From Branchiostoma floridae (Eukaryota; Chordata; Leptocardii; Amphioxiformes; Branchiostomatidae): a stretch of 64,000 nt of DNA. Where the stretch lies: contig NC_049979.1 in the NCBI RefSeq assembly GCF_000003815.2, positions 4,004,248-4,068,247 on the forward strand, in the 5' to 3' direction. The position numbers and the translations under genes are program-made. Below are positions 3,001 to 57,200 of the stretch, in pieces. The first letter of the stretch is position 1. Each line of letters begins with the position of its first letter. The notes beneath the pieces were generated by a model. The model saw only the letters and a program-made list of their open reading frames with translations. It did not search any database and was not told the origin of the DNA.

Positions 3001-6000
3001 TCCTGTACAAACCCAGCCTGCTGTCTTTCAGCCCACAGACACCCCAGTGCCAGTATTGGGACATGTGACGGTCCAGCTTATCCGATTGACAACAATCCCA
3101 CAAGCAGCTGCATCTAGAAATGATGCAGCAGGGGGCATGGGTCATCACCATGGTAACCGAAAGCAAGAAGCACCTCAGTCTCATGATCAGGTGACATTTG
3201 GTGGGCTGGGATCAGGAACAGGACAGTTTGATAATCCATGTGGTGCTACAGTGTCAGATGAAGGGGAGATCTATGTAGCAGACAGGGGGAACCAGAGAAT
3301 CCAAGTCTTCACCCTGCGGGGAACATTTGTGAGACAGTTCCCAACAGTTGTGCCATGCGGACAGACGTTGAGCCCACAGTGCATGGCCTTGGACGAAGAG
3401 GGGAACCTGTGGGTGGTGGGGGGGACAGACTCTGTTCACTTTGCTGTGCACTATGACAAACAGGGCAGGGTGCTGAGGAAGTTTGACCTACAGAAGACAG
3501 GGTGGAACAGAGGAGTTGCCGTGGACACAAGGAGGAAGCACATCCTCATCACACAAACCAAAGGACGATGGTGGGACAACCCCCCACCACATGGTAAAGT
3601 TTTGGTGTTCAGGCCAGATGGGACACTTGTGAGAACTGTGGGTCAGCAGCAGGGGATGCAGTACCCATGGTCCATCACTTTGGATGGGAAAGGGAACATT
3701 TTTGTGTCGGACTGTCACAATCACTGTGTCTATGGATACAATAAGAACGGACAGTTTTTGTTCCAGCTTGGTAGTGAGGGAAGTGGTGAAGGTCAGCTGA
3801 AGTATCTTCGTGGCATCTGTACAGACAGGGCAGGTAACATCATCGTGGCAGACTGGGGAAACAGGCGTGTAGAGAAGTTTGACAAGACAGGAAAATTCCT
3901 GGACCACATCATTACCAACCTGGCAGAGCCACATGCTATTGCCATGGCAACACAGGGACAGCTGGTAGTGACTGATTATGCGTGGCACACAGTCTCCATA
4001 TTTCACTGAAGCTGAGTCAAGTGATGAGCAAACTTCACTACACACTGATATATTGACAGCGAAGTTGATGTGATTTGACTCATCAGACAATGCTGTACTT
4101 CATGTAACACATTCCGAACTAAAACAAGAAATTCTACATACAAGGTATATGTTGATACTAAGTTCTGTACAACATAGTATCGTTGATGCACTCCTTAGAA
4201 GTCCCTTCCAAAGAAGTGCAGTCCTTTTCACCCGCATGCAAGTTGTGGCGGAACCCAGTAACATCTAACTAAGTTGGGACTTGAACACTGAACCATTGTG
4301 GACTGGAAACAAGATTGTTAAACCCAACACGGTAGTCCCTCTGCAGTCTCTGATGACTCCATTACTGATGAATGTTTCACAGACAACATTTGAATTCCTT
4401 ACGCTAGTCTTTCTACACTCTGCATTATGACCCTACGACAGTGATTGTTTGTTTATTGATGCACAATGTTAACGTATCAGACAATAGTCACACATTCATC
4501 ATCTTTTTTTATTGGTATCCTAAAACTTATAATTTCAATCTGACATATTCACACTCAGTTAGTCAGTAATTACTGGCAGCACTACATTATCCTGGTGTAC
4601 AAAGGGCCATCATGAATCAAGCCATCACTGTATTTTATTTTACTGTATTTACCTGTATAATTGATGTATTCAGCTTTGTATATGTGTTTACTTGTTCATA
4701 ACTTTGTAATGATATGGGCCTCTGTGCCTGAAATAAAACCAAAATAAATCAAAGTATTGATGTCTGTTTTTCCCCCTCATGTGCAAACTGCTTGCAACAA
4801 AACAACACACACAAAACAAATTTTTGGCCGTGTGCACCAAAAAAGAAGTTTTCAATCATACTATACATCGTACAAAGCAGCTGCATTATGAGCGGTATAT
4901 GCCATTAACTGCAAAGAATAGTGGAAAGCGGATACTAATGTCATAGAATGTCAACATCAATTCCAAAGACAAAGAAGAAGATGTGAAGGAACAAAAATGA
5001 AGAATCTATTGCTCGGTATACCATACTCTCGACTTTTCTGACCACTTAGATTTCATAATGAAGGCAACATTTTTTTTTCACCAAACTTTTTTTATTCACA
5101 TGCATCAGTTCTGGGTTTCAGAGAGGATGACATCAATATAATCAAAACAACATGGCCCTACTTAGTGGCTAAAGCCTCTGTGGAAGGGGGTTTGACCAAA
5201 GTTAGGTACTGTAAATGCATATAAGTTTGCGGAGATTTAATGTCGCGGTAGCGGGAAAATGGACTTGTCGTGGTGGTTTTAATTTCGCGGTAGCACCATG
5301 CACTGTAGTCTCTTACTGCCATGGAAAAATGTTTGCAGTGGTTTTAAATTTGCGGTGAATTGGCAGCTTTGGAAAATTTCTGCATTTACAGTATACTAGT
5401 ACATTGTACTATAGGAAAACCGCCGCGAAAACCGCGAACATTAAACCACCAAGTTTTTGCAAGTTTCTGCATTGACAGTACTCATCTTCCTGTTTGTTCA
5501 AACACAGAGGAGAAAGCCGAAGAAGAAGCAGCCCATCCAGGCCAGCACGGCCGGTGAGGCTATTGAGAAGATGCTTCAGGAGAAGAAAATCTCCAGCAAA
5601 ATCAACTACGACGTTCTCAGGGACCTGAACAAGGAGACGGAGACCAAGAAGCCGCTGGAAATCACTCCGAACCGCCTCACGCCGAGCAGACTGCAGCAGC
5701 CCCTCATGTCCCCCAATGTTCCAGCCAGGACGGCGCTCAGACTACCCACAGGGGGCAGCAGTAAGAGGTGGGTTAAAGATCCAGGAAGAGGCAAAATTCT
5801 GTGAATAGTTTCATCAGGTTAGTCAGACTACCCACAGGGGGCAGCAGTTAGAGATGGGTAGAAAGGTTGAAGAAGGTCAGACATCCTGGTCAGAAGATAC
5901 GCCATAAAGCAGTTATTCAAGAGGTTGGATAGGATTTTGGAAACAGACAGATGTTTCAGATAGTATCTACTACCTTTTATCAGTGACACTGAAGAGATAG

Positions 6001-7956
6001 ATAGAAGGGGAAGCAGGAAGAGGTGAGTAGAAAGGTTGAAGAAGGTTAGACATCCAGGTAATGAGATATGCCAAAAAGCAGTTACTCAAGCAACTGGATA
6101 TGATTTTGGAAACGGTCAGACGTTTCAGATAGCAGCCACTACCATGACAGATATTTTACATTCTTCTGTTTGAATAAAGGATATTCATTCATTCTGTGTT
6201 CACCTACCAGTCAGTATTTCATGAACCTTTCAGTTTAAAGTTCTTATTCAAGTAGGAAGTTCACAAGTGCAAAAAAAATATGTGACATGATCTTTTGTTG
6301 TTTTTTCCTCTCCACAGACCTCACCTGAAAGTTGAGGAGACTGAAGAGGTGAGATTTTTTTTCTAGTTGAAGTATTTTGTAAGGTGTATGTTATCAAACT
6401 GGAATAGTTGATGTTTCCTGCTATTAATGCCTGTCTACCTGTGTTTTGCCTAGTACTCCTGTGTCAGGGATCCCAGCAGCAGTATAATCAAATAATGGAT
6501 ACTAGCATACTACTAATGTTTTGTTTAGCTGACATTGTCGTGTTGTCTTTTGTTTATGCTTATGTTTGTTTGTCCAGAAACCTGTTGTCAAGAGACCAAA
6601 ACTGGAGGGTTCAGAGGTTGTGGTGGAGACAGGACCAGTGGAGTATGCAAAGGTGGAACCAGGTACGTAGGTCCTTGTAAACACAGGTGAACAATCCAGG
6701 TATGCCCTTACAATTGTTTAACAATCCAATCCAGTAAACCATCTGATTACATTCTTATGAAAAAATACAAGTAAACAATGTAGAGATATCCTTACAAACA
6801 AATACAAGTAAACAATTGAGGTGTGCCTGTCATTTGACATTGTGGTGCAGATGCATGAATCCAGCTGATCCTCTACTTTTCTCTCTAAGTTTGCATCTGA
6901 GCAAATGGTGTGTATTGATGGGATAAGGATGTGATGAGATATTGTTAAGTACGTGTACATTGTATTGGAGGTACTGTGCAATGATGTGTGTTGATGGGTG
7001 AAAGATGTGATGAGATAGTGTCATGTATTTCAGGTTAAAGATGTGATGCATGAGATGATGTCATGTATTGCAGGTACCATGTGTAGATGATGTACAGTAA
7101 TGGGGTGCAGATGTGATGAGATGATGTCATGTATTGTAGGTACTATGTGTGAATGATGTACCCTAATGGGGTGCAGATGTGATGAGATGATGTCATGTAT
7201 TTCAGGTACCGTGGACCATGAGGAGGAGGCTGAGGAGGATTACTACGAGGAGGATGAACCAATCAGTGCAGCCCAGCTCATGGGCAGGACAGGTCAGTAC
7301 AGCTTTGTTTATCTCACATGGATGACATTTATAGTAACAAGTAGGGGTGGATACCGGTACAGAAAATTCAGGTCCAGGTCCGTTTCAGGTCCAGAGGATC
7401 AGGTCCAGGTCCGGACCTGATTCAGTATGTGAAAACTTGTGACTGTAAAACTTGGTGGAAATTACTATAGACTCCAATCTACTTCGCTCTTGTTATTTTC
7501 CTCGACCAGTAAGCCGCAAAACGTGTGAATGCTTGGTCAGATAACCTGTTAATTTTCAATTAGGTCCAACATCCGGTCCACCAAATTTTTTCAGGTCCGT
7601 TTTTTCTGGACCGGTCCTATAAGAAAAAACGGTTTTGTACCTGTACACTCTACTGGTACCCAGCCCTAGTAACAAGTGAAGGAACAAAAATGAAACATCT
7701 ATTGTTCGTCGGTTGTACCTTACTCTGCGTGTGTCATTTCTCCAACCTTTCTGACTACTTAGACTTTTACTTGATAATAATAACTTTATGCATCCCAAGC
7801 AGAGTTGGGAATCTATGAACATGTTGTTGCAAAAGTTGAATTTATGAATCTATGAATATGTTGCAGAAGTTGAATTCACGAATCTATGAACATGTTGTTG
7901 CAGAAGTCGACCATGAAGACTATGATGACGGCTATGACATGGATGAGTATGATTGA
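1..7956 (+). CDS. BRF1: BRF1, TFIIIB 90 kDa subunit, C-terminal half (partial, 10 exons)
   Basis: BRF1 is the TFIIB-related subunit of TFIIIB that brings TBP and RNA polymerase III to tRNA and 5S promoters in the nucleus. Coding exons read from splice sites and phase: 1-79 (partial), 503-709, 977-1062, 1379-1460, 1885-1946, 5508-5767, 6318-6348, 6578-6662, 7206-7292, 7904-7956. All junctions keep one frame, ending at TGA 7954-7956. Recognisable family segments are [12 protein letters not shown] followed by [15 protein letters not shown], and [19 protein letters not shown] followed by [11 protein letters not shown]; the latter is the conserved Brf1 homology block that binds TBP. The tail is highly acidic ([13 protein letters not shown], then [15 protein letters not shown]). 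The N-terminal zinc ribbon and cyclin folds must lie before the window. A glutamine-rich stretch ([13 protein letters not shown]) sits at the start of the second exon. The intron between 1946 and 5508 contains a separate TRIM gene. Exon boundaries are by eye and could be off by a few bases. Confidence 0.9.
80..502 (+). other. BRF1 intron with GATT and GAGGGAG simple repeats
   Basis: After the donor at 80 the intron carries tandem GATT units (about 148-205) and a purine-rich GAGG/GAAG tract (about 209-275). Nothing else is recognised before the acceptor at 501-502. Confidence 0.7.
2186..4009 (+). CDS. TRIM-NHL protein (RING, B-box, coiled coil, NHL), intronless, nested in BRF1 intron
   Basis: An uninterrupted 607-residue frame predicts a TRIM family RING-type E3 ubiquitin ligase resembling the TRIM2/TRIM3 class. 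The RING is at about residues 18-57 (C18, C21, C33, H35, C38, C41, C54, C57). A B-box type 2 follows at about 100-131 (C100, H103, C112, C115, C120, C123, H128, H131). A helical, Q/E/K-rich coiled coil covers about 140-260. A low-complexity linker comes next, then about six NHL beta-propeller blades from about 340 to the end (for example [16 protein letters not shown]). I see no filamin repeat, which vertebrate TRIM2/3 have between coiled coil and NHL. The start is the first ATG before the RING, after TTAACAAA. It lies on the same strand as BRF1, inside a 3.5 kb BRF1 intron. Lack of introns suggests retroposition or membership of an expanded intronless TRIM set; the exact orthologue cannot be assigned. 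Substrates are unknown. Confidence 0.9.
   Translation: MAAAPSSLGAQFREELSCSICLELFTRPKVLPCQHTFCQDCLQDLAGNNRHLKCPNCREHVRLSRKGVAGFRDNHLVASLCERLQNQATLSGEIREQPQCSFHLSEVLKVYCKQCQIPVCDQCLEVAHDGHGTTTIKKAALERSLTVQPLINEGRDILESYCSFIRGLREKEKNLNRQKQQRDNSIIQAYNKMVQKLTQGKYHLLSESQQSHRENFEKIQTERDRVLANANELSAACDRAEQELQQGWGEFLSQQAALTEVVGKYRGKAAPTPVQTQPAVFQPTDTPVPVLGHVTVQLIRLTTIPQAAASRNDAAGGMGHHHGNRKQEAPQSHDQVTFGGLGSGTGQFDNPCGATVSDEGEIYVADRGNQRIQVFTLRGTFVRQFPTVVPCGQTLSPQCMALDEEGNLWVVGGTDSVHFAVHYDKQGRVLRKFDLQKTGWNRGVAVDTRRKHILITQTKGRWWDNPPPHGKVLVFRPDGTLVRTVGQQQGMQYPWSITLDGKGNIFVSDCHNHCVYGYNKNGQFLFQLGSEGSGEGQLKYLRGICTDRAGNIIVADWGNRRVEKFDKTGKFLDHIITNLAEPHAIAMATQGQLVVTDYAWHTVSIFH
4732..4748 (+). promoter_or_regulatory. 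Two poly(A) signals for the nested TRIM gene
   Basis: Two AATAAA hexamers (4732-4737 and 4743-4748) lie about 720 bases after the TRIM stop codon, in sequence otherwise without coding potential. They give the nested gene a plausible 3' UTR of about 0.75 kb. They also lie inside a BRF1 intron on the same strand, so they could prematurely end BRF1 transcripts unless suppressed. Confidence 0.6.
5205..5480. mobile_element. MITE-like element, TACTGTAAATGCA family, copy 1
   Basis: The element begins with CTGTAAATGCATATAAGTTT and contains paired segments in opposite orientation (ATTTCGCGGTAGCACCATGC; CCGCGAAAACCGCGAACATT), ending near TGCATTGACAGTA. Other copies lie at about 11204-11410, 39117-39327, 51466-51667 and 62632-62844. 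It is internally palindromic and noncoding. It sits just before the BRF1 acceptor at 5507, so that exon's upstream pyrimidine tract lies beside element sequence. Confidence 0.75.
5863..6150. repeat. Two adjacent copies of a dispersed element (GTTACTCAAGCAACTGGATA family)
   Basis: Two related blocks of about 120-130 bases (5863-5993 and 6035-6150) share the order AGACATCCAGGT, ATATGCCAAAAAGCAGTTA, CAAGCAACTGGATATGATTT, then CAGACGTTTCAGATAG. Related blocks occur at about 22640-22700, 29800-29965, 34475-34612 and, shorter, at 46330, 44005 and 58690. They sit in the BRF1 intron after exon 5508-5767. Confidence 0.65.
7000..7215 (+). repeat. Tandem copies of a BRF1 3' splice site
   Basis: The authentic acceptor reads GATGTCATGTATTTCAG with exon GTACCGTG starting at 7206. 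Copies ending GTCATGTATTGCAGGTACCA, GTCATGTATTGTAGGTACTA and GTCATGTATTTCAGGTT lie upstream at about 67-base spacing or less. Two of the three upstream copies keep an AG at the splice position plus the first exon bases. Confidence 0.8.
7341..7671. mobile_element. TIR element, GGTACCGGTACAGAAAATTC family, copy 1
   Basis: The left end is GGATACCGGTACAGAAAATT and the right end ACTGGTACCCAGCCCTA, roughly inverted complements. The interior has repeated CAGGTCCAGGTCC motifs and no coding capacity. A longer second copy is at about 29994-30428, whose ends (TAGGGCTGGGTACCGGTAC and GTACCGATACCCAGCCCTA) define the family more clearly. Confidence 0.7.
7805..7915 (+). repeat. Triplicated 3' splice site of the last BRF1 exon
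   Basis: Three tandem units of about 33-40 bases, each starting GAATCTATGAA and ending TTGCA(A/G)AAGT. The last is the authentic acceptor (GTTGTTGCAG with exon AAGTCGACC from 7904). The middle copy also keeps TTGCAGAAGT, so two usable-looking acceptors lie within about 40 bases. Confidence 0.75.
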
Positions 7957-8337
7957 CAGCTGTCAGCATGGAGGGGAGGGACCAAGCTACTTGCCATTCT
8001 TCCTCACACAGTTACTGTTGTAGTTATGTTTTTTTTTTGTGTTTATTCCTGCCACAGTACAGTCTGTGTGAATTATTTGAAAGATGTAAGTGTACAAATG
8101 TATTTATTTCTCATTTACTCGTTGTGCAAGATGAACTGTTTCGAATCTGCTCTCAGTGTTGTCTTGTGACAGACATTGTGACACAGGATGCTCAACCAAA
8201 ACAGTCTGACCTGCCCAATTAGACCGCTCAGGATAAAATATGGCGTATGTGGACAGGATTTTTAAAGCTTGTGTCGATGGGAAATTTATCTATGGGTCCA
8301 CACTGGCCATGTGGTCATGTAGAAGTGGTCAGTAGTA

Positions 8338-8592
8338 AGCACGTCACCGGAACGTACTGCGCCTGCGCGAAAAGAATAGACATGCTAAACCTTGCTAAAC
8401 CCCCGGTTTACTAAAGGGCCGCATTTAAGAAAGTACGTGCGTATATAAGGGTAAAACTCCGTGTACGTTTTACATGAAACCATGTCTCTAACATATACTG
8501 TGCAACAAGCGGGATTTCAATGCAACGTTGACCAAACCAAGCCCCAAAACACCAGGGTTCGCGCAGGCGCAGTACGTTCCGGTGACGTGCTT
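8338..8592. mobile_element. MITE with perfect 33-base terminal inverted repeats
   Basis: The left terminus 8338-8370 starts AGCACGTCACCGGAACGTAC; the right terminus 8559-8591 is its exact reverse complement. CAGTAGTA flanks both sides (8330-8337 and 8593-8600), which looks like an 8-base target-site duplication and suggests a hAT-type non-autonomous element. It is about 255 bases with no ORF and lies in the BRF1 3' UTR or flank. Perfect ends suggest a recent insertion. Confidence 0.85.
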
Positions 8593-16400: not shown

Positions 16401-19400
16401 TGTCTGATTATATGAAAATATCATCTACATCTCTATGTCAAGTCTTATTTTCATAGACAGCACGAATCATTTGTTACAGTCAAATAAATCTTTGGAGCGT
16501 TCTCTAGTCTGCCACCTTCACAGCCACACTCCCTTGGGAGTACAATGGTGGCAATGTTTATGTCGCTTCCTTTTGGTTACTTTTCTACTCAACAAACATT
16601 TGAAGACCCATATTCATAGTGTTTTATGGAGCTTTATTTATGTGTATCATGGCAGTTGTGTGACTGCTGGATGAGTTCGTATAGTTAGCGACATGAGCCG
16701 CCAATACGCAGAGGCCGGTGACCGCAGTGATTCAGCACTGTCAACATTACTGTTAGAATTCTGCTCTTAAAAAAACATGAAGTAAATATGTTAAAGTAGA
16801 CTTGGAATGCAAATTAAAGCTGTGTGCATGGACTTGGTTTATTTACCTTTGTAATCAGCATAGTCAGTGGCAACAAACACGGTGTACTTATGGATAATAA
16901 GATCAGCAAAAAATCCGTACCGTCTTACGACGGGGACCGTCTTAGGGCGGCCCCCGTTATGTGTGTACCAGTATTATAATAGAAGTAGGCGGTATGTGGG
17001 TAAGTCCTGGAAAGAATAAGGTCAGGGACCATCAATAAAAGGCCACCTGTTGTCTTTGCTTAGAATTACAGTCGCACTTTCTATTCATGTATTTTTTGCC
17101 CATTTTTAGTTCAAAGGACAATTGCCATGAAGCAAGACTTCAGTTTTTAGTTTTGCGGAATTTCTGACAATGTTCACTTTCCCCAGAAACCCGACCCCCG
17201 GAATCATCATCAACAGGCCCAACGGCACAGATGTGTACAAGGGGGTTCCCAAGGACTACAACAGTGAGGTATGTTCTGAACACACGAATGTCCACGGACA
17301 CACACACGGACAGGGAAACACACACACACACAAACATACACCTGGGCACACATAGCACTAACTAGGTACAGATGTGTACAAGGGGGTCCCCAAGGACTAC
17401 AACGTTGAGGTGTGTTGTTCTTTAGTCCTTAAGACATTAATCTTAATTGTGTTAATGTACTTCATTACTACTAAATAAATCATTAAAAATAGTTTATCCC
17501 CTTCTATTTTCTAGTGAGAAATTTACCTTTAGCATCTTGGTTAATGCTGCCATGTCTAAGTATTGTTATAATATATGTTCTGAGTATACACTCAAACTCT
17601 GACATGTTTGTGACATGTTTTAGGATGTGACTCCCGAGAACTTCCTGAATGTGCTGAAGGGAAACAAGGAGGCCATGGCGGGGATCGGGAGTGGAAAGGT
17701 GCTACAGAGGTGAGCGGTGAGACGCGTCTGTGTGTGTGTGCTTGCATGCGCGTGGTGTGTGTGTATGCAGACGCACGCACGTGTGTGTGTGTATGTGTGT
17801 GTGTGTGTACTGAAAGGAAACATGGCAGGAATTCGGAGTGTAAATTTTCTACAGAGATGAGACATGTGTATGAAGGGGATAGAAAAAATGCTCTATGAAA
17901 AAAAACTTTTTTGAGGGTGTTGGGGCATATTTTTGATCCAACATGGCCAGAGTTTAAAATCTGCAGAAATACTGACAATCTCTTGCTACACCAAACATGG
18001 AATGGAAAAACCCTTCATGAAGTCTGGGTCATTATCAGGCTCTTAATGACAAGACCCTTTGTTCCCCCCAGCGGCCCAGAAGACAATGTGTTTGTGTTCT
18101 TCACCGACCATGGAGCGCCAAACCTCATCGCTTTTCCTGAGTCAGAGGTAACACATTTCTCTGGATACTATTGCAACAAGGGTGTCATAGTGATAAGCCC
18201 GTAACTTAAATGTTATGGCTGATACCAAATTAGACTGATCCTGACTGGTCATCATAATCAGCAGTTCAACCAATGATAGGATGGCTTTTCGTGGTAATCG
18301 ACAAATAAGAGTGTGGCTTCATGTCTGTCAAGTATTTGAATTTTTATGAACTTCTTATTCTGCATTTCTACATTATTATGGAGGTGTGGGGCTAACTACA
18401 TGTACTAGATTGGCCTCAATAAGGGTTCAGTGGGCAAATATACTTGGCTATTGAGCTCAATTCTGTGAAAACTGGAATGAGTGGAAGGGCTTACTATTAA
18501 AAAATGTCTTCCTGATGACTATTGTTTCTGCCATTTATAACGAAACAATTGCAACAGCTAATTTGTAATGATGCGTAAGTAGAAATTTAGAATTTTGTGT
18601 TTCTCTCAGCTCCATGCGAAGGACATGATGGAGGCTCTGCAGTACATGCACGACAACAACATGTACAAGAACGTGAGTAAACGGTTGAAAAAAATCAAGT
18701 AAAACATGTCAATGTGTCAATGCCTGGCCTTTTTTTTGTGGTTATACTTATAGAGTTGAACAAAAAGTGAAATTCTCACTGTGACTGTGCTACTAGCATG
18801 TTCACAGATTTTTGTACTGGGAAGCAACTTTTGGAAAAAAAAAGACTCAGTCTGTGATGTCAGTGTTGTGAAAACTCCTTTGCAATGGCTAAAAACTAAA
18901 AACCAAAAACTTAGCCTGAGTGCATTCGATTACAGTGCAGGGAGCCCAGGTAGTAATTGGATGGCACCCAGGCTACTGAAAACTTACTAATCAAGAAATT
19001 CTGATGTGGGCTGAAAGAGGAACATTTTTTGCTGAAGCACAAAAGAATAGAATTAAGCTTCTTTGCTGCCATGAGCCATGATGTTTTTGCTTTGTGTTTG
19101 TATATGCAAAATTTAATAATGTGCCCCTCCCCACTGCAGCTGGTGTTTTACCTGGAAGCTTGTGAGTCTGGCTCCATGTTCCACAGACACCTGCCCGACA
19201 ACATCAACAGTAAGTCTTGCATCTCCAGGGTTTGGCAAATTTACGTCATCAACAGGCTAACTAGGAAGACATTATGGTTCCATTGGTTGTCAACTTTGCT
19301 AATCAAACTAGAATTATGACCAGGCTTGTAGCCAGCACCCGTCCTTCCATCCTTTGACGGAGGGATGGAAAACAAATTTGCCCATTTCGTGACAGACAAA

Positions 19401-24539: not shown

Positions 24540-25285
24540 CACCCTGACTACTGGCATATAGCAGGCCAGGCACATGTAGAGCTACATGCAACTGGCAACC
24601 TACATTTGTATACAGGCCAGCTACATGCAACTGAGAACCTCTACAGGCCAAAACATGTAGAGCTACATGCAACTGGCAACCTATACAGGCCAGCTGCATG
24701 TGACAGACATACAGGCCGGCTACATGCGACTGAGAGCTTCTACAGGCCGGATACATGTAACTGGCAACCTATACAGGTCAGCTACATGGACTGGCAACCT
24801 ATACAGGCCAGCTACATGCGACATACATACAGGCAGAGTACATGTAGGGCTACATGCGCCTGAAAACCTATACAGGCCAGCTACATGCAACTGATAAACT
24901 CGACATGCCAGGTACATGTATGGCTACATGCAACTGGCAACCTATACAGGTCAGCTACATGCGACAGACATATAGGCCAGGTACATGTAGGGCTACAGTA
25001 CATGCAACTGAGAACCTCTACAGGCCGGTTACATGTAGAGCTGCACATGCAACTGGCAACTTCTACAGGCCAGCTAAATGCAACTGGCAACCTCTACAGG
25101 CCAGCTACATGCAACAGACATACAGGCCGAGTACATGTAGAGCTACATGCAACTGGCAACCTATACAGGGCAGCTACATGTGACAGAACCTCTACAGGCC
25201 GAGTACATGTAGGACTACATGCGACTGAGAACCTCTATAGGCCAGGTACATGTATGATCACATGCAAATAACAACCTCCACAGGC
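24540..25285. repeat. Minisatellite, CAGCTACATGCAACTGGCAA units
   Basis: About 745 bases of degenerate tandem units built from ACATGTAGAGCTACATGC, AACTGGCAACCTATACAGG and CCAGCTACATGCGACAGAC, arranged as a higher-order unit of roughly 80 bases. It creates long false frames on both strands. It lies between the convergent 3' ends of legumain and DAAM. Confidence 0.85.
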
Positions 25286-36031: not shown

Positions 36032-36086
<55 letters not shown>

Positions 36087-36120
36087 GACCATGTCCTTGG
36101 GCAGCTTGTCAGCCTTGTCC

Positions 36121-36153
<33 letters not shown>

Positions 36154-36227
36154 AACTCACACACACAGACAGAAACACATAGACTAACCTGCTCAACCAT
36201 GTCCTGGACAGCACATGAACCTTGTCC

Positions 36228-36258
<31 letters not shown>

Positions 36259-42200: not shown

Positions 42201-45200
42201 CCCTTTTGCCCAACCCTCCCAAAATAAGTTTTTAATAGATAAATTCAAGACCCAGCTCAATGTCATTGCCATGGCGCCAGCCCAAGGGCAGGGTTTAAAG
42301 GTTAAAGGGCATGCAAGGCTGAAACGGAAGCACTGACTGTTGCCCGCAGCTCATTGAGTTTCCCTGAGAGCTCAGTGACCTTTGCCCTCTCCTGGGCGAG
42401 CTCCTCCTGCACTGATGCCAGCTTGTCCTTCATCTTGTTCAGGGTGCTCATCATCTCCTCCTATAAACAAACAAACAAACAAACAAATAAACAAAACAGT
42501 CATTTGAAAACAGGGTTCACTACCTTCTAACTTTAAAGCTTTAATGTGAATGAAGTGAGATAAACCCTTAAATGTTTGTTGGACTTTCAATGTATGTCAT
42601 TGATTGATAAACATGGTGTCAGTGGTGGCAGAGCTGCTGATCAAACATGGTGTCAAATATGGAGGCAAGGAACTTCATCAGTCAACGAAATCCTACCCTG
42701 ATTTCTCCTAACCTGCACTTGGATTAACAAAAACTAACTAAAACAGTTACCAAACCAACTAGTTCAAATTTTCTATCATCTTACCCTCCCATTCATTACC
42801 AACGCTTGTAATAGCAGTGAAAACAAAAGTTTCTGGATGTCTCTTGATCCAGTGAAGCATCCCTGCTGAGGTGTAACACAGATCATCAAGCCCATGACCC
42901 TGATGCACAGGCATGCAATCCTCCATGCTTCTTACTGCATTGGCACTGGCCAGCCAATCACAATGCAAGCAACGGTCAAGAAACAACGTGATAGGCTGGT
43001 AACTTTCCCTCCAACTAACAGAAGGCGGGTTTTCTGAATGGCTGATGGCTGATTGCACACTAGTATGACAGGGTGAGATATAGACGAAAGAAGGGCCAGG
43101 CATAAGAAGATGATTGTGGTACCTTCTCCTGTATTTTGGTAATCTCCAAGCAGATCCTACTGTGGCATAAGATAGTATCAAAGGCTGGCAGAGGAGTGAA
43201 GCTAGCTTAGGAGTGTGTTTCACAAGGCAAATGGACACCTTTTGGCTGACTACACTCCTTGGCCAGTTTGGTACTATCTTATGCCATTGTAGAATCTGCT
43301 TGGAGATTAGTGTTTTGTAATCTCCAAGCAGATCCTACGGTAGCATAAGATAGTATCAAAAGCTGGCAGAGGAGTGAAGCCGGCTTAGGAGTGTGTTCGC
43401 TACCGGGGCAAATGTACACTCCTTGGCCAGTTTGGTACTATCTTATCCCATTGTAGGATCTGCATGGAGATTAGTATTTTGGCCCCAATCTCCATGTCTT
43501 ACCTTCTCCTGTATCTTGGCCTCGCACTCCCTCTCTTTCTTCTCCAGCTGAGATGTGAGCTCCTCCCTCTCCTGCTGCATGGTCTGGGCCTGAGCCTTCC
43601 ACTGCTTGATCTCATTCTCATTCACGATCCTGAGGGACGGTTTCAGTTACAAACAGCCGTTAGAAGTCATGTACAAGTGATACTGTAAGATCTGAGGGAC
43701 AATTCCAGTTGAAAACATCCTTCAGAACATGTACAAGTGATACTGTTAGATCTGAGGGACAATTCCAGTTGAAAACATCCTTCAGAACATGTACAAGTGA
43801 TACTGTAAGATCTGAGGGACGGTTCCAGTTAAAAACATTATTCAAATACAATTCAATGTCTACACCTGGATAAGAAACAGATATTTACTTCCGGACGTTT
43901 CGAGTGACATCCATCACTCTTATGCAGCGTCACTCGATGTCACTCGAAACGTAAATATCTGTTTTTATCCAGTTGCAGAGATTCAATTGTATTTGAATAT
44001 TGTTTACCTGGATGTCTAACCTTCATAAACTTTCCAGTTAAAAACATCCGTCAGAACGTGTACAAATGATACTGTCAGATCTGAGGGACGGTTCCAGTTA
44101 AAAACAGCCGTCAGGAAATGTACAACTGATACTGTTATTAGATGGCATTCTCATTCAGATACTCAAGATATACTTGCTTGAGATCCTAACCCTCAATCCG
44201 GTGCATTTCTAACCACCTGAAAGTGACCTGTGGCATGCTACATTACAACCGTACCACGCCAATTTGGTGCATGGGGGAGGTCTGTAGTGTGAGAAGGGTT
44301 AAGAACATCCTGTGCATACACAGAGGGCCAATACCATAACCGATGGCTGAACCAAGTTCCAACACAACAAAAAAAACTGAAACAGATTCCAGACTTAAGG
44401 CACTTTTGAACCACCCCTGAAGTTAGATAGCGTCTCAGATATCTGACCAGACTGGGGAAGCTGGTTGAAAATTTGTAAGTTGAGTTAATTACTTATCAGT
44501 GTTGGACTGACTGTATACAATTTGGCATTAATAAGAAGAATTGATGATGGTACTTTACCAGCAATGTTACAAGCTCTAAGTAATTCTGATTAGTCATGTG
44601 AACAATAATCATACAATAAAGTTTGATTGGTTGGTTATTTGGTTAATTTGAAAACTCAGGAGGCTGCAGTTTGAACAGTTTTAAAGTTGTTGCTTTGGAA
44701 CACAGTTTGGCCATCTCTGATGTGAACTGCTGACACAGATGAAGGTTTGTGCTACCATCCCATCATCCTAAATCCCTGAAACACCCTGGGAGGGGGAAGG
44801 GGGGGGGGGGGCTTAACGCACATGTCAATGTCAACCAACAGGCCCACTTCACATGATGCACCGACATCTGGGCCACATTCTGGGGGTTCGTCGAGCTGCA
44901 AACTTTAACGTGGGTGAAATAAGAGTGGAAAGCAATGATCATACATATCAGAGTTTGCAAAAAACAGAGAAAATGTGGAGGGACACTGTATCAGGTGGAG
45001 AATATGAGAAAACAGAAAGAAGATTTTTCTACCTGCCCAGAGCTAGAGGATCATTACACAGTCTGCAGACAGAGGGAGGGAAGGAAAGGAGAGTAGCAAG
45101 ATGAAAGTAGAGATGGAGGGAAGAGTGGCAAGAGGAAAACAGAGACAGGAACACACAGGAAACAACAAAACATGACTGTTAAAACAATCAAAAGCAAAAT

Positions 45201-48200
45201 AGTTTCAACATAATCTATGCCAAGGAACGTCAATAAAACAGAGCTTCTTTGAACAGAAAAATGAGACCGACAAACTTCCAACCAACTTCGACCACCTCAT
45301 GGAGTGACATGATGAAGTTCTACACTTGTCTTACATTGTGTTGAACAACTTCAAACAGAGATTTTGTCTCGTATCAAGCTGACATAAGACAGTGGCATTG
45401 AACATCAGCGTACACGAAGCATAAAAACCACAGTGCTGACTTACATCTCCACCAGTTGGCTGACGTTGATGTTCTTGAGCGGCGCCACGTCAGGGTCCAT
45501 TCCGTTCTCCTGCACCACGATCTGCTGCAGGATGCGGTCCACCAGCTCCCAGTACTCCGGACTGCCATGCCTGTCCACTGTACAACAAACCATTGGTCAG
45601 TAATACTATACAACCATAGCCCCTAACCCAGTTCCCAGTACTGTCATGTCTGTCCACTGTACAACACATACATGTACAGGTTCACTGTTTACTATCAGCA
45701 ATGTTCTCATGCTAAACCTACACCACAGCTAACCGACTGCCATGCCTGTGCACTGTACAACACAACACATACATACAGGCTCTGTTAGAACATGCTATAG
45801 CATATAGGTCAGTTATAATTACCATAACCATAACCATAACCCTAACCCTATAGCTAACCCTACAGCTAACAAAGTACTATGGAATGCCATGCCTGTCTGT
45901 GGTAAAACATGGTACATTAGCAACCATACAGTAACTCCAACCCAGCTCCTAAAAAATTGGTCATTCCAACCCGAAGAAGGCCATAGTGAAGAAGGGACAC
46001 CATTTGGCAAGTGTTTTCTTTGCTGTGTGGGAAGACAGCTCAAGCCTTCAAGAAGACTAAATTTTCATGCTTACGCCATCATGATTCTGATGTACTTATC
46101 ATTAAGTACCGGCAACGTCTTAACTTATGAAAAATCAATCTTAAAGCAGAGAGAGTCTTGACTTACGTGGCAGGAGGAGCAGGTGTTGGAGGAGTGACAG
46201 GAAGTGAGGATACGCCGCCGTGTGGTTCAGCTTCTTCTTCAGCAGGTCGAACATGCTGCCGGCACTGCGTGAGTCCACATGGACCTGCCAGACAGAAACG
46301 TACAATATTTATCTCATCTATAAAAGACAAAACAAATCAAGCAACTGGATAAAATCTCAACAAGTCAGACCTAACCATTCTCAATGTATCTCATCTTAGA
46401 TGTAGACAATATATATACTGGAAAGCTGTTCTCTCACTGGTTGTAACAAGAAAGATAAGGTATAGTTCCATCATACTCTTAAAGGAAAACGTTCCCTAGA
46501 TCCTTTCAACAAGTACAATAAATGTGGCTCAAACACAAAAATGTCAGGGATTTGAGACAAGATGTTAAGAAAAAGATAAATTCATGGCTAGCATTTTCCT
46601 TCGTACCGAGAGGAAACAAACTCATTAAGTTCTAATCTCTAAACATGACTTGTATTGAAAGTCCAAGGTACATGTAGTTTATTTCCTTACCACATCAAAT
46701 CTCTTTGCAAGTTCCTGTTCATCCTCAGTTCTGATCAGTTCAAAGAAGTCTATATGCCTGAAGCGAAGAGAAAACATACATGAATGTAAGACATCAGCTT
46801 ATAATACAGGAATGCAAGACAGCAGCATACTAATAATGATACAGGAACATAAGACAGCAGCGTACTGAAAAAGATCAAATAACTTTGACAATCATTGATG
46901 GCTGTCATGTAAGATGCAATTAAATCACTGTACGAAGTCTTGTATAAATAATTACCAATGTTTCAACTTTGGAAAGGCACTTATAAATTTCTGTGAGTGT
47001 CAAAACAGAAATACATGTATAAATACAACATAATTATGTAAACTTAAGTTGAAATATAAGACATTAAATTTTCAAAAACCCATACTTTTTTCCTGACGTG
47101 ACTAATATTAATACCAATATCAAATTTTGCACTATTAGAAATGTTATACAATGTACAGGTATATCACATTTCTGCCTTTGACCTTTCTAAATGTCTTTGA
47201 CCTTTCCATCTGCCTTTGACCTGTCTATCTGGATAAACCAAAGAATTGGACTAGTATAGTCTAATCAAAACAAAATTAATGGCCCAATACAACTGCAGTA
47301 CGAGGCAGTTAGTTCTAAGAAACCCTCAGGGCTTGAGGCCTGACATACAGTTTATATTTGACTCTAATGTTTCCCCACAGTGGGCTGTGTTTAACAAACA
47401 GAATAGCTGAGGAGGAAGGTAATATCAACAGGGTGGGAAACACTCAGCTGACGTTTGACATGTCAAACTGGCTGCACATAGGGACATACAAAGGCAACGA
47501 CTTATCAAAACGCTGGTTACTTTACATTCTGAATTCGATATTCTGAAGTTAAAACACTCTGTTTATTGTTAATTTGAAATTTAGACTGTTCATGCGTATT
47601 TTGTAAATTCAGAATTACTCTGCAAATGACTCCAAGAGAGTACAATTAATTTCTTTCCTTACCTATCTACGACTGCATTTTCATGGATCTGTAGCTTGTC
47701 TTTCTAAAATTCTATGATGGGTCCTTGCCTACCTAAGACTTCAAAGACATTACGTACGAATTTCTTACCTTTCACAGATTCGGGTTCCTTATATATCTAA
47801 GTTTCTATGATGGGTTCTTTACCTATCTAAGATTCTATGATGTATTCCTTACCTATCTAAGATTGCATTTTCATGAGTCCGTAGCTTGTCTATGATGGGT
47901 TGGATGCCCAGCATCAGAAATTCGTAGCGCAAGTGGACCCTGAATTCCAGGCTCTCCTGCAAAGGGAAATAAAAAAAATTGTTAAAAACAAATTTTTTGC
48001 TTATCTATCTGGTTTGAAAAGATTTAAAATCACAGGTAACCTCATAATTGTCATTTCCTATGTCAAAACTTACCTGTTTGGAAATCAACCTAAGCCCTAT
48101 ACAATGCATACACATGTACACAGGAAAGGAACACTAGCTGCAGGGCAGAAGTCAGATCAATTCCCTGGCAAATTTCCTGTCCTTGACACAAATTCTAACT

Positions 48201-51200
48201 GATGGCTTCACTGTAGAAACCTAAACCTGAGCTGGGTTTCTGGTACAACGATCCTGAATTATTCCCAGCAGGTGGTTAAGGAGGAAACTGAAGAAAGCAG
48301 GAATGCCGAATTAGCACATTTATCTAAGCATCCATAAAGACATCAGAGGGTCACGCCGACCTAACGGGTTACCGGCAGATCACCTTGTGGCGGGGAAAAC
48401 AAGTTAACCTTTATATATGAGGTGCTACGTCATATCTTACATAAGCTATATATATATAGATTAATGTATCTATCTCTTACATAAGCTGTCATAGCATGTA
48501 ACCTCTGGCACACTGAAATATCACCTTTAACACAGTTAAGTGGCCATTTGGCTAACAATTCCGTACTGGGTAGGTGATTAGGTAGCAGGGAGAAGCCTAA
48601 TACCATTTTTTTACCTATGCAAAAAAATGCAGGAGGGGGGCATTGTGAGGGAGCAGAGTGTGTGTGTGTGGGGGGGGGGGGGGTAATGTGGTGGAAGGGG
48701 GGTTCCCCCTGCACTGCAGAAAGAACTCACCTCACCAGCACCATATCTGAGCATTAGATTTTGGACCCCTACTGGCCCCCGTAGGAACTGCAGAACTCAC
48801 CTCACCAGAACCATATCTGAGCATGACATTAATGAGGTACCCCTAGTGGCATTGATGTGAACTGCAGAACGAACTCACCTCACCAGCACAATATCTGAGC
48901 ATGACGTTAATGAGGTACCCCTAGGAGCATTGATGGGAACTGCAGAAATAACTCACCTCACCAGCACCATATCTGAGCATGGCGTTGATGAGGTACCCCT
49001 AGCAGCATTGATGGGAACTGCAGAAATAACTCACCTCACCAGCACCATATCTGAGCATGGCGTTAATGAAGGACATGATGGCTGTTTTCAGGTTGACCTC
49101 CTCCCGGTACACCCCCGTACTTCGGTCCAGGTCGTGGATCAGCGACTGCAAGGAAGAGACACGGAAAAAAAACACTTTAAAATAAACACATGGCATGAGA
49201 GGTGCTGATAGAAATCATTCTGAAAGACAGTTGGACTGTACATTCAAACACAAAAATGTAAATTTTGCAATGTCCAACTCCTTGACAAAGACTGGAGTTG
49301 GCCAGTAAAGAATATGGGCAAGTCCAATTTTTTTGTTGGACATTACAGTTCAATTTCCTTCAGAAGCAATAGCATAGTTGCTTAAGACTCTTACCAGTGA
49401 ACAACATCAAGTGGAAAGAAAAAGACATTGCAACGTAGATGATTGCAGCTACAAAACAACAAGAAGAGCTGAAAGAATCTTGAAGAAAAAATCAACAACT
49501 TCAAAACAGCAGGATGGACCCCAAAGAAGCTCAGGCCCTAAAATGCCTCTCGTTACACTCGTTACCTCTCTCGGTCCCAGCCTTGAGCGTCGGTGAAACA
49601 GCGGCAAGTCATGGAAGAGGGACTGGTCACAAGATCACACACACACACACACACACAAACATACATACAGGAGCACGGGAGAAAAGAGGTGCTTCAGAAG
49701 TTTACAGCTATGAAATCTGGAGCCAGCCACACACCACTGAAGGAAGCTAAGACTAACATAGAAAATCGACTGCAGAAGTGGATTGCATGCATTTGTACAG
49801 CCAGCGTGGGAATACATGACAAGTGCATGAGATAATACAACAGGAATGCTAGAGGCAAGACACAATACTTTTCTCCAAAAGGGTTGATCTACGTCACCCA
49901 CTGGAGACAGAGTTTCCCTGATGTAAAAACAACAAGGCGACCTTGGGAGGGTTCACATTGTTCCCACCAGAACTCTTTCTTGTTATCTAAATTATATTTG
50001 AATGTGCTTGAATGTGGATTTAGCTGACAGATCTAAATTCTAAGTGATATATCTGTATAACAAGTAACGTTACCTAAAGAAAGATATCCTAATACAGAGA
50101 GAAGAAGAATTTTCATTTAACCGCTTTTTAGTTTTTCCCAATCCAATGTAACTAGGGTCAGTGTCTTTAGAATGAGGTTTTTCACCCACATGGCTAAATT
50201 TTACCATTCGCAGTCAGCATTGGCAGTCTGGTGGAGACAACTTCCAGAAGCCAAGCAGCTGAATACTGTAATTCCTGAGTTTTTCAATGTTATTTTAAGT
50301 TCACGGTTTTCATGTTGACGACTGGAAGGTAAACTTATCATTATTGATAACAAATAAATCACTACCTCTTTTTATGTGCACATGCCGCTATCGTCAACAT
50401 TTAACTCTGAGAACAAGTTAAATTTTCTCAGACTGTGAAAGTTAAGTATCGAGAAGAATTACAGTAACAAGGTTTGGATAAGTGACAAAGTCTGGGCAGT
50501 TCTGGTCATATTCTAAGTACCTGAAATCTTGTCCTCTCAGCGGAGTAGTTCTGGTAGTGCAGCATGGCCTCCAGCACCTTCTTGTGCCCCCCCTCCACCA
50601 GGCACACCGCGCCCAGGATCTCCAACACTGCGATCTTCGTCTTGATGTTCTCGCAGCTCAGGCTCTGCGCGATGATGTTGATGCTGCTGTGGTGGCCAAG
50701 CACATGGGACCTGCCATGCTGGAGACAAACAAACAAACAAACAATAAACAAACAATTTCAACACATAGTTAACTACCAACACAAGGCCATGGGACCTGCC
50801 ATGCTGGAAAATAACAAACAAACAAATAATAAACAAATGAATTGAGATTCAAAACACAACACACAGGGCTATGGGACCTGCTATGCTGGAGACAAGCAAA
50901 CAAACAAATAATAGATTTCAACACACAATAAAACACTCAATACTTGGCTGTCAGATCAGACATGATGTAAATAAAAATAAACAATAAATGAATAAAAAAT
51001 TTCAACACACTTAGCTTGAATTTTCATCTGTGTGGGTAGTGATCATTTAGAAACAAAGTTGAACTGTAATTTTTTACCCCAAAGCACAAACTTTAAAACA
51101 GAGACTAAGTGCTAGCATCAGAACACATTGGATTACTAGGCACCATTATATAACTTTCGCAACTTATGATCCAATTCTTACAGAGTTACTACCATGCAGT

Positions 51201-54200
51201 AAGGAACATATATGATAGGAGTCTCTCTTCATTCATGTAGCTACTACTGTTAGTAGCTTTAAACAACTTCTTCCCCACAATTTTCCACCCATCCCTGTAG
51301 AAAACATTTCCTCCTCTGATTTAACGACGCTTGTTTGAATAAATTTTGGTACAAGATGTTGGCTTTCTATATTCATTGCGAATGATTTTGCAACTCCTGA
51401 ATTGCTTGCTAAATGCTGTAGCAAGACCAAACAAACCTGAGCTAAGCTGAGCTGAACATAAACTGTTTAATGCAGAAATGTTTGAGGTGGTTTTATGTTT
51501 GCGGTTTTTGCAGTGGCCAATTCACCGCGAACTTACCAGGAACATTTTTCCATCATAGTATTTGACTGCAGTCTATGGCGCTATCGCAAACTTAAAACCA
51601 CGGCAAACACTCCATTTTCCCACTACCACGAAAGTAAATCCCAGCGAACTTAAATGCATACAGTATATAAGAATTGAACGTACTGAGTTGTTCATGAGAG
51701 CCTTGATGCAGCCGATGATGGAGGTGTGAATTCTGCTCTCCGACGTCTCGTAGTCCATGCTCTGCAGGAAGTTCAGCAGGCACGACAGCCCGTCCAGCTC
51801 GATAAACCTGTGCACAAACCTACGGAGGAACAAACATCACCATAAACCTGTGCACAAACCTACGGAGGAACAAACATTGTCATGACAACCCGTCCAGCTC
51901 GATAAACCTGTGCACAAACCTACAGAGGAACAAACATCAAGGTAAACATGTGCACAAACCTACGGAGGAACAAACATCACAATAAACATGTGCACAAACC
52001 TACGGAGGAACAAACATTGTCATGACAACCCGTCCAGCTCGATAAACCTGTGCACAAACCTACGGAGGAACAAACATCACGATAAACATGTGCACAAACC
52101 TACAGAGGAACAAACATCACAATAAACCTGTGCACAAACCTACGGAGGAACAAACATCACAATAAACATGTGCACAAACCTACGGAGGAACAAACATTGT
52201 CATGACAACCCGTCCAGCTCGATAAACCTGTGCACAAACCTACGGAGGAACAAACATCAAGGTAAACCTGTGCACAAACCTACAGAGGAACAAACATCGT
52301 CATGACAACCCGTCCAGCTCAATAAACCTGTGCACAAACCTACGGAGGAACAAACATCAAGGTAAACCTGTGCACAAACCTACGGAGGAACAAACATCGT
52401 CATGACAGCCCGTCCAGCTCGATAAACCTGTGCACAAACCTACGGAGGAACAAACATCACAATAAACCTGTGCACAAACCTACGGAGAAACAAACATTGT
52501 CATAACAACCCGTCCAGCTCGATAAACCTGTGCACAAACCTACGGAGGAACAAACATTGTCATAACAACCCGTCCAGCTCGATAAACCTGTGCACAAACC
52601 TACGGAGGAACAAACATCACAATAAACCTGTGCACAAACCTACGGAGGAACAAACATTGTCATAACAACCCGTCCAGCTCGATAAACCTGTGCACAAACC
52701 TACGGAGGAACAAACATTGTCATAACAACCCGTCCAGCTCGATAAACCTGTGCACAAACCTACGGAGGAACAAACATCACAATAAACCTGTGCACAAACC
52801 TACGGAGGAACAAACATTGTCATAACAACCCGTCCAGCTCGATAAACCTGTGCACAACCCTACGGAGGAACAAACATTGTNNNNNNNNNNNNNNNNNNNN
52901 NNNNNNNNNNNNNNNNNNNNNNNNNNNNNNNNNNNNNNNNNNNNNNNNNNNNNNNNNNNNNNNNNNNNNNNNNNNNNNNNNNNNNNNNNNNNNNNNNNNN
53001 NNNNNNNNNNNNNNNNNNNNNNNNNNNNNNNNNNNNNNNNNNNNNNNNNNNNNNNNNNNNNNNNNNNNNNNNNNNNNNNNNNNNNNNNNNNNNNNNNNNN
53101 NNNNNNNNNNNNNNNNNNNNNNNNNNNNNNNNNNNNNNNNNNNNNNNNNNNNNNNNNNNNNNNNNNNNNNNNNNNNNNNNNNNNNNNNNNNNNNNNNNNN
53201 NNNNNNNNNNNNNNNNNNNNNNNNNNNNNNNNNNNNNNNNNNNNNNNNNNNNNNNNNNNNNNNNNNNNNNNNNNNNNNNNNNNNNNNNNNNNNNNNNNNN
53301 NNNNNNNNNNNNNNNNNNNNNNNNNNNNNNNNNNNNNNNNNNNNNNNNNNNNNNNNNNNNNNNNNNNNNNNNNNNNNNNNNNNNNNNNNNNNNNNNNNNN
53401 NNNNNNNNNNNNNNNNNNNNNNNNNNNNNNNNNNNNNNNNNNNNNNNNNNNNNNNNNNNNNNNNNNNNNNNNNNNNNNNNNNNNNNNNNNNNNNNNNNNN
53501 NNNNNNNNNNNNNNNNNNNNNNNNNNNNNNNNNNNNNNNNNNNNNGACAAACATCACAATAAACCTGTGCACAAACCTACGGAGGACAAACATCACCATA
53601 AACCTGTGCACAAACCTACCGGAGGAACAAACATCACCATAAACCTGTACAGCTCAATAAACGTGTGCACAAACCTACGGAGGAACAAACATCACGATAA
53701 ACCTGTGCACAAACCTACGGAGGAACAAACATCGTCATGACAGCCCGTCCAGCTCGATAAACCTGTGCACAAACCTACGGAGGAACAAACATCACAATAA
53801 ACGTGTGCACAAACCTATGGAGAAACAAACATTGTCATAACAGCCCGTCCATCTCGATAAACCTGTGCACAAACCTACGGAGGAACAAACATTGTCATAA
53901 CAGCCCGTCCAGCTCGATAAACCTGTGCACAAACCTACGGAGGAACAAACATCACAATAAACCTGTGCACAAACCTACGGAGGAACAAACATTGTCATAA
54001 CAACCCGTCCAGCTCGATAAACCTGTGCACAAACCTACGGAGGAACAAACATTGTCATAACAACCCGTCCAGCTCGATAAACCTGTGCACAAACCTACGG
54101 AGGAACAAACATCACAATAAACCTGTGCACAAACCTACGGAGGAACAAACATCACCATAAACCTGTGCACAAACCTACGGAGGAACAAACATCACAATAA

Positions 54201-57200
54201 ACCTGTGCACAAACCTACGGAGGAACAAACATCACCATAAACCTGTGCACAAACCTACGGAGGAACAAACATTGTCATAACAACCCGTCCAGCTCGATAA
54301 ACCTGTGCACAAACCTACGGAGGAACAAACATTGTCATAACAACCCGTCCAGCTCGATAAACCTGTGCACAAACCTACGGAGGAACAAACATCACAATAA
54401 ACCTGTGCACAAACCTACGGAGGAACAAACATTGTCATAACAACCCGTCCAGCTCGATAAACCTGTGCACAAACCTACGGAGGAACAAACATTGTCATAA
54501 CAACCCGTCCAGCTCGATAAACCTGTGCACAAACCTACGGAGGAACAAACATCGTCATGACAACCCGTCCAGCTCGATAAACCTGTGCACAAACCTACAG
54601 AGGAACAAACATCGTCATGACAGCCCATCCAGCTCAATAAACCTGTGCACAAACCTACGGAGGAACAAACATCACGATAAACCTGTGCACAAACCTACAG
54701 AGGAACAAACATCACGATAAACCTGTGCACAAACCTACAGAGGAACAAACATCACGATAAACCTGTGCACAAACCTACGGAGAAACAAACATTGTCATGA
54801 CAACCCGTCCAGCTCGATAAACCTGTGCACAAACCTACAGAGGAACAAACATCGTCATGACGACCATCCAGCTTGATAAATCTGTACACAAACCTATGGA
54901 GGAATAAACACAGCTGGATGTTTGTTTCGTTGTTTACAGCATGGACTGAAATATATCATTTTCTTTTTGCTGTTTCTTCTCCTTCGCCAAATCTTCAAAT
55001 GTACTCTTATTTTGTTTCCATGACATACATCTCAATACATGTTGTTGTCCAAATTCATATATTCTGGTTTTGCAGCAGTGCCCTTATTCCTAGTTACTCT
55101 GACCATACATCAACCCAACAATCAATAAATGATATAAACAGATACAGTCGTGCCTGGGGGCGAGTCCAGCACATCAGATGGTCAGACTAATGGCAGGAAG
55201 GGAATTTACAGGATCTGCATGAATCAAATGTTGTTTTTAATCCATTTTGCAGCCATCAAGGCACCACATTTGCCGTTGTAACGGTCCAGAATGACAATCT
55301 AATCGCCTTTGGGCGCTGAGGGTCAAACATATGGCACAGATGCAGCTTCTGATCTAATTTCTGCTCCACTCATTGGAGTCCGATATAAACAGCATCTAGT
55401 CATAATTGAGGAGGTGCTTCCTGGCAGTATAACTCTTCATTGAACCTCTCTATCGTACCAAGGGAGTGATGAAGTATAGGCACAATCAGAGCCACAAGTA
55501 GATTAGCCTGATTTAATCTTGCTTATAGCAGCCCGCCCAACATCCACCGGACAGCAGAGTTTGTGTCACACGGACTACAAGTAGATTAGCTGTTAGTAAT
55601 GCCTTAATTAGTGCGTTGCAACCAGGTATTTAAGAAGAAAACAGAACACAGATCATTAAAGAGTTTATCACATACTAGTAACAAACCTCAATTTCCATCC
55701 TTCATACTTTCTCATCATGTCTGAGATTTATATAGTGGTGTCATTCACTAAATAGCTGTTGGAAAGTGAAAGAGTAAGAAAGAGGGACATCCAGAGACAG
55801 AGAGAGCAAAAGACAGGTGAGTGAAAGAGCATGAGGGAAAGAGAAAGAGGGGACAGTAAGAGAGACAGAGAGTGAGCAAGAGAAAGGAGAGAGAGACTCA
55901 GAGAGACAGAGAGGGACTTAGTGTGTTACCTCATGGGCTGTGTCCTGAGGGCTGTTTTGAGGCTGTCGGCCAGGTTTGCTCGTACTGTCACCTCATCATC
56001 ATCGTGGGCGAACACAAGCTGCAGGAGAGGAACAAGGCAATGAGGAACCACTACACAGACATAAGCATGAACCAGAAAGTAATCTCCAAGTAGATCCTAC
56101 AATGGCATAAGATAGTATCAAACTGACCAAGGAGTGTAGTCAGCCAAAAGGCGTCCATTTGCCTTGTAGAATCTGCCCCCAGTCAGTTAGAACAAAGGCT
56201 ATCAACATCCATCAACACCCCGGTATCGAAACACACCCCTCTGCCAGCTTTTGATACTATCTTATGCTATCGTAGGATCTGTTAGGAGATTACCTGAAAG
56301 TACAGAAACCACAACTGAAATCAATGTAACACTGGTCACTTCATAGATGGAAAGTCCAAATGTCATGCATACAAGTTCTACAAATCAATAATATAAAAAA
56401 TCATTTAGAAAAAAATGTTTTGCTCCATACTGTGGTAGCTTTATCACAATCTGTTATTTGGAGTATAGTTCATTCATGATGTATAAATAAAGGCATTTGT
56501 TAGATTTTGAAAATTTCTGGGACCCGGTTCTTTCCACCATTGAAGTGACTGGTGCCATCAAAATCATTCAGAACAATTGCTTGCATTTTAGCTCAATTCT
56601 CAGCATTTGTAATCATTATGACAAATTTCTATTCAGAGCAGCACAATTAAAACAACATGTGGGGCCATCCAAATCACAGCTACCCATTTCACACTACCAC
56701 AACAACACTATAATATCAAATTCAACTTCATACAACCATTATCACATATACACAAGCTACATAGCAATAAGTTCTGCACATACTGTAACATGTTTCAGTT
56801 TGGCAGTTGATTTGGACTAAGCATGCAAAATCTGCAGGGCTGCATTTGAAATCCGCAAAACAAATCTGTCCATTTTATTTACACTATTTTTCTTCAATCA
56901 TTCGTGCCATAAAAAGAAATGATAAAAAAGTCAATACGCCTTTGCTATAGGAGCAAAATTTGCTTTAACCAGGACAATACTGAAACCCACAAAGACAGCC
57001 AGGGCATGAAGAAAGTAAGGACAGCTGAGCATTAAATGTTTAGCCTTTAGGCAGGTGATGCAGGTGTATGTACAGGTGATACAGGTGTGCCTACAGGTGT
57101 AGCTACATGTAGGTGCAGCGTTTGGTTGGCTACAGACTTACCGCAGCTGCCAAGGGCCACTTACATGTAACGAATGTCAAAACAAGAAGACAGAAGAATT

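Follow-up and report, generated by a model that had tools for sequence, protein, structure and literature searches.

Duplicated exon–intron junctions of the mirage kind in BRF1, LGMN and DAAM of Branchiostoma floridae

Genes and copied junctions in the window

The window analysed here is a 64,000-nucleotide stretch of the Branchiostoma floridae genome (NC_049979.1; G000:C1:4004248-4068247 in an assembly of 513 Mb and 431 contigs), within which short blocks crossing exon–intron junctions recur in the adjoining introns of three genes, BRF1, LGMN and DAAM. Genes were called with a self-trained exon finder supplemented by database matches. On the forward strand, two exons of BRF1 match PF07741, and LGMN matches legumain (E = 1.7e-155). 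On the reverse strand, the joined predicted exons of DAAM align to DAAM1 (E = 2e-152), and an abhydrolase gene carries PF20408, with one of two exons above the cut-off. We take this last gene to be TEX30 and use the name for orientation only. Two borders of BRF1 were set manually, with a donor at 5761 (predicted at 5767) and a last exon at 7904-7957 that was added by eye.

Each junction was scored by its best ungapped self-match, lying no more than 1.5 kb away and crossing the boundary with at least 5 net on each side, with microsatellites masked. After local shuffling of eight chunks, no position attained the threshold of 16; one chunk, L013, consists wholly of N and is uninformative. Counts use an X-drop score, an earlier score having let strong matches run into unrelated flanks; the outer coordinates of some parts were taken from inspection of the repeats and from that earlier, looser score. 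Of 84 curated junctions in the window, 15 score at least 16 within 4 nt of the border: 10 of 41 in DAAM, 3 of 13 in BRF1, 2 of 25 in LGMN and none of 5 in the TEX30-like gene. Ten of the 84 are crossed at the exact border (DAAM 8, BRF1 2, LGMN 0), and two of the fifteen, LGMN 17709 and DAAM 43503, are weak. The initial annotation of this DNA had listed about 14 duplicated junctions, donors and acceptors alike, in these three unrelated genes, and its list was confirmed nearly item by item. Control points placed within introns close to junctions of the window were covered at 10, 12, 11, 9 and 9 of 84 positions at 40, 80, 120, 160 and 200 nt, and farther out at 7 of 80 (300 nt) and 3 of 77 (400 nt), a coverage that is due partly to the copied junctions themselves.

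Throughout, the exon stays single and the extra copies are confined to the adjoining intron, the arrangement that characterizes a mirage, as such amphioxus structures are named in the accessible text of two papers (PMC3087553, PMC3902484). A unit that runs from exon bases through the splice site into the intron, with a listed or weak crossing copy, is present in 14 of the 16 features described below.

All three of the junctions proposed for BRF1 were recovered, each on the forward strand. The block over the donor (5760 or 5767) has two displaced copies at +86 and +255 (5737..6138). Acceptor 7206 adjoins an array of approximately 66-nt units that include the acceptor and 4–8 exon nt, with copies at -66 and -132 (6912..7213), and the last acceptor at 7904, that of the exon placed by eye, lies in a unit of approximately 34 nt with 7 exon nt (7809..7910). 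In LGMN, also on the forward strand, the one junction expected is clear: 45 exon and 7 intron nt at donor 17268 recur once at +141 (17224..17416). It is joined by a decayed copy of donor 17709 at +147 (17673..17861), which matches at 32 of 41 nt and has lost its GT. This second junction scores 18.5, yet yields no copy under the stricter copy listing. A gapped-alignment version of that listing hid neighbouring copies and was replaced, although the identity given for 17709 still derives from it.

For DAAM, on the reverse strand, about ten junctions had been proposed; nine are clear and one is weak. The clear donors are 28560 (27803..28609), where 50 exon and 24 intron nt are copied at 425 and 749 nt; 36398 (35972..36445), with copies at 98, 209 and 317 nt and CA/CAGA repeats between them; 47853 (47655..47886), with copies at 30 and 190 nt; and 49035 (48713..49069), where a 78-nt unit is copied at 78, 156, 234 and 304 nt, each time with its GT. 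The clear acceptors are 33911 (33875..34249), with four copies at 60–314 nt; 35874 (35856..35942), with one at 51 nt; 45577 (45548..45901), with copies at 79 and 175 nt; 50718 (50697..50913), with copies at 85 and 167 nt; and 51819 (51781..54910), which has 48 extra copies in 40/60-nt steps. The weak case is donor 43503, for which 17 exon and 3 intron nt recur at 380 nt (43120..43519). A further array of 60-nt units (43630..44132) only abuts the acceptor at 43629/43630, and holds no exon bases and no listed copies.

Anatomy of the copies

Outside the array at 51819, the copies contain 4–50 exon nt and 3–164 intron nt, are 73–98% identical to the junction (mean 89%) and lie at offsets of 30–749 nt. 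The GT or AG dinucleotide is intact in 24 of 29 listed copies, approximately as expected from the mean identity; two BRF1 copies are counted twice among the 29 because both possible donors list them. For 16 pairs of junction and copy, the intron beyond the splice site was compared. In eight of these homology continues (z 2.7 to 30), which is the pattern that head-to-tail duplication would leave, and in the other eight it stops (z below 2). For seven of the latter, the match takes in the end of the exon, the splice site and a few more bases at 78–95% identity and is displaced; in the eighth, BRF1 7904, the unit is short and the comparison tells little. The original description of tandem units of about 35–85 bases needs correction in two respects: the offsets span the wider range given above, and several copies are displaced and not in tandem. 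Templated insertion during repair would yield the displaced pattern directly and may be its source. Alternatively, the displaced copies may be old tandem units in which the intron part decayed while selection held the exon.

The large array at acceptor 51819 had been credited with up to about 48 extra copies, and a recount also gives 48. A gap of 665 N lies within it (52881-53545), and the count of 48 refers to the assembled copies alone. AG is kept in all 48 copies, and 41 of these decoy acceptors equal or exceed the score of the real site under a rough acceptor model trained on these data. The real acceptor and 47 of the 48 decoys read AG|GTTTGT, and a splice to a decoy would therefore recreate a donor-like sequence where the exons meet. 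With an upstream exon end of CAG assumed, such a join has a rough model score of 5.47, compared with 7.45 for CAG|GTAAGT and a median of 4.29 for used donors.

Relation to published mirages

The initial annotation was correct in mentioning minisatellites that cross exon borders at amphioxus Adh. In its accessible text, PMC3087553 cites Adh3 and two other reports, which by their titles concern a retinol dehydrogenase gene and presenilin, and describes mirages at the globins BflGb6 and BflGb9; it proposes intron gain, calls the mechanism unclear and notes that splicing is apparently normal. Mirages in PGBD5 and TnC are added in the available part of PMC3902484, where copy numbers differ between two assemblies and resequencing confirmed the case. 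No genome-wide count of mirages was found in the literature searched, which covers few subscription papers.

As a positive control, the best TIGR02818 match in the genome was used (one exon at 136 bits, short of the family cut-off), a locus that is probably Adh3 by this match. It was scored without microsatellite masking. The two predicted exons at this locus (L034 2043-3376) have four borders, of which three score 39.5, 218 and 251, with arrays of 26/29-, 59- and 33-nt periods, and the fourth scores 0; the metric therefore detects the published kind of case. The periods of 26-59 nt compare with 10-72 bp published for Adh3 (PMC3087553).

The Adh3 mirages of B. floridae and B. lanceolatum (Canestro et al. 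2002, as cited in the accessible text of PMC3087553), for which somatic instability is reported, resemble those of the window in their short units over exon–intron borders, which in the window fit a tandem arrangement in 8 of 16 comparisons. The window differs from them in the greater number of junctions affected in one gene, DAAM, in the longer array there and in several displaced copies. The globin mirages likewise affect acceptor and donor sides and contain splice signals, but their units are 150-160 bp with up to 6 copies (PMC3087553), whereas offsets in the window are mostly shorter and copies number 1 to 48. In PGBD5 (60 and 108 bp) and TnC, imperfect repeats overlap or abut splice sites at more than one place per gene, although these are other genes with fewer junctions affected in each (PMC3902484). 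The Rogers model, in which tandem duplication of AGGT-containing exon sequence leads to intron gain (cited in PMC3087553), also entails copying of splice signals; in the window, by contrast, the copies lie within existing introns and no new intron was seen. Repeats in earthworm metallothionein were considered as a further parallel and set aside, as they are intronic and the available text of PMC12783039 does not describe them as junction-spanning. The structures in the window thus belong to the mirage kind already known, the density in DAAM and its 48 decoy acceptors being notable.

Overlap with junctions in the window and in a genome sample

Repeat families were compared with a null in which each family is rotated at random within its own gene. 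Across the window, 15 of 31 families cross a junction where 5.3 are expected; the other 16 are intron-only, and so are as common in these genes as the crossing ones. By gene, crossing families number 10 of 21 in DAAM (null 3.70, P = 0.0008), 2 of 4 in LGMN (null 0.59, P = 0.099) and 3 of 6 in BRF1 (null 1.04, P = 0.052). When junctions are counted instead, the values are 10 against 6.17 (P = 0.096), 2 against 0.60 (P = 0.104) and 3 against 1.25 (P = 0.126), respectively. Given that the family test stands out and the junction test does not, what is unusual is how many separate families there are, rather than the ground they cover.

The sample consisted of 25 regions of 10 kb at positions fixed before inspection, of which approximately 21 kb is N, including the whole of L013. 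Of 71 exons above the score cuts, five made of repeats were dropped, leaving 66 exons and 130 junctions in 19 regions; six raw matches among the initial 140 junctions fell in those five predicted exons (10 junctions) and were removed with them. The sample exons are predicted. Nine multi-exon sets were scanned, and six of them, which account for 68 of the 130 junctions, match a Pfam family (one below the cut-off). None of the 130 predicted junctions is crossed (upper bound 2.3%), and none of 74 families crosses a junction where 4.95 are expected (P = 0.003). Coverage of nearby intronic control points in the sample was lowest at 40 nt (1 of 127) and highest at 120 nt (7 of 124). Looser cuts, giving 162 exon ends, added three matches within 30 nt of an end, none of them crossing. 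The window and sample differ (15 of 84 against 0 of 130; Fisher P = 4e-7), also when only the 68 Pfam-supported junctions are used (P = 1e-4) or DAAM is left out (5 of 43 against 0 of 130, P = 8e-4), although these P values are inflated because this feature was the reason for choosing the window. The comparison suggests that mirages are not equally common across the genome. The earlier expectation that they are widespread is not supported in this modest sample, in which overlap with junctions does not rise above that expected from density, as it does for the window families.

These counts bear on the possibility that exon–intron borders are mutational hotspots, where a change in composition, or damage linked to transcription or splicing, promotes duplication. 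The window excess would fit a hotspot, as would the three of four junctions at the Adh3-like locus, though that locus was chosen as the published case. Against this stand the empty sample and the combined data: with window and sample pooled, 15 families cross where 10.3 are expected (Poisson P = 0.10), no clear excess, and when the null is doubled for visibility the window count becomes unremarkable (P = 0.12). A hotspot at splice junctions is therefore considered unlikely.

Use of the copied splice sites

The DAAM1 alignment passes through the exon-proximal joins at 28560, 33911, 35874 and 36398, and the legumain alignment through those at 17268 and 17709, with at most one residue missing at a split codon. 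At these six junctions, joining the predicted exons at the exon-proximal site gives conserved protein, which is consistent with splicing there. Use of a distal copy could be assessed for 43 copies that keep the dinucleotide, have a frame prediction and are separated from the junction by no N. A stop or frame change results in 42 of them (21 of 22 outside the large array and 21 of 21 inside), so use of the distal copies would be harmful. Mismatches in the exon parts are spread over the three codon positions (24/223, 17/231 and 29/227) with no clear pattern, and the copies therefore look unconstrained.

Selection on the copies, with distal sites making alternative exons or regulating splicing, could account for the finding that all four donor copies at 49035 equal the real site in splice-model score, and for the retention of AG throughout the array at 51819. 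However, the suggested route to alternative exons finds little here, as one copy in 43 extends its exon in frame and free of stops (single-copy extensions only), and outside the array the splice dinucleotides decay like the remainder of the copies. We regard such selection as very unlikely.

Neighbouring genes and other repeats

A single-exon RING/B-box/NHL (TRIM-like) gene is nested in BRF1 on the same strand (window 2183-4009). In the flank upstream of the window (L035, 5000 of 10000 bases N), no additional BRF1 exon was recognised. A BTB-like gene, named by eye, adjoins BRF1 there (L035 26-1548, reverse strand), and its three predicted exons show no self-match at their ends. BTBD6, BRF1, LGMN and DAAM1 are presumably all on human chromosome 14; if so, linkage of the BTB-like gene with BRF1, LGMN and DAAM may be ancient.

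Minisatellites lying outside any exon found are present at 24570-25285 (mixed 31/43/74-nt units) and 62857-63293 (142-nt unit), and local repeats are therefore not confined to junctions. An intron of DAAM holds a very abundant, near-identical dispersed element (window 30000-30400), with 97-100% identity among the matches listed, these being the best 40 of 4149 first-look candidates. A second dispersed repeat occurs genome-wide in units of approximately 51 nt, each with a perfect donor-like CAGGTAAGT (for example C1:9479866-9480026). Among the matches listed it is often found in inverted pairs approximately 1-1.5 kb apart, such as C3:4962184 (+) and C3:4963274 (-), which resemble a transposon with subterminal arrays. 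A pattern search for donor nonamers recurring at a spacing of 29-59 nt gave 278 matches compared with 8 for the reversed control; it was dropped as evidence for mirages because most of the places listed are one dispersed repeat.

Discussion

The copied junctions are probably ordinary local duplications that happened to span a junction, were tolerated and are concentrated in certain genes, with no genome-wide attraction to splice sites. As in the mirages of Adh3, the globins and PGBD5, a short block over the junction would be copied locally and sometimes grow into an array. The junction copies would arise by the same local duplication as purely intronic repeats, with slippage or unequal exchange giving head-to-tail units and short templated copies made during repair giving the displaced ones. 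Such copies would persist as long as the exon and its own site remain intact and in use, since a border-spanning block would be tolerated while that site continues to supply normal mRNA. A copy with an exon anchor should also remain visible longer than an intron-only pair, by a factor of up to two. The excess in the window is thus probably a combination of longer visibility, where the exon partner is held constant, and gene-to-gene variation picked out by the choice of window.

Several findings count against this account. The number of crossing families in DAAM exceeds its own null, and the concentration of 10 of 41 junctions in that gene is left unexplained. The sample contains fewer crossing families than random placement gives, which simple neutrality does not predict. 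The proposal that exon copies are better visible stands only in part: eight of the 16 compared copies match no further into the intron, but exon parts (71 of 688, 10.3%) and intron parts (96 of 824, 11.7%) diverge about equally rather than twofold, possibly an effect of trimming each match to its best part.

That the duplications were created in assembly, by high heterozygosity or misjoined repeats, is highly improbable: the largest array does contain 665 N and copy numbers are unequal between the two assemblies of PMC3902484, but the units are short and mostly diverged with exons left single, resequencing confirmed the case in the accessible text of that paper, the Adh3 mirages come from an independent study (via PMC3087553), and an assembly-wide search with one locus, 49035, found no second copy or second haplotype.

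Local duplication that is tolerated at junctions remains the favoured account, and should the concentration in a few genes be borne out in a full annotation, it would point to a local cause masked by the average rate. It is also conceivable, though unlikely, that mirages cluster in particular genes and that large ones are tolerated through active correction, in which a wrong splice would be respliced stepwise to the exon-proximal acceptor in a manner like recursive splicing. If true, such correction would let one gene carry 49 near-equal acceptors. DAAM is a natural test of how the spliceosome chooses one acceptor among 49 that are nearly equal.

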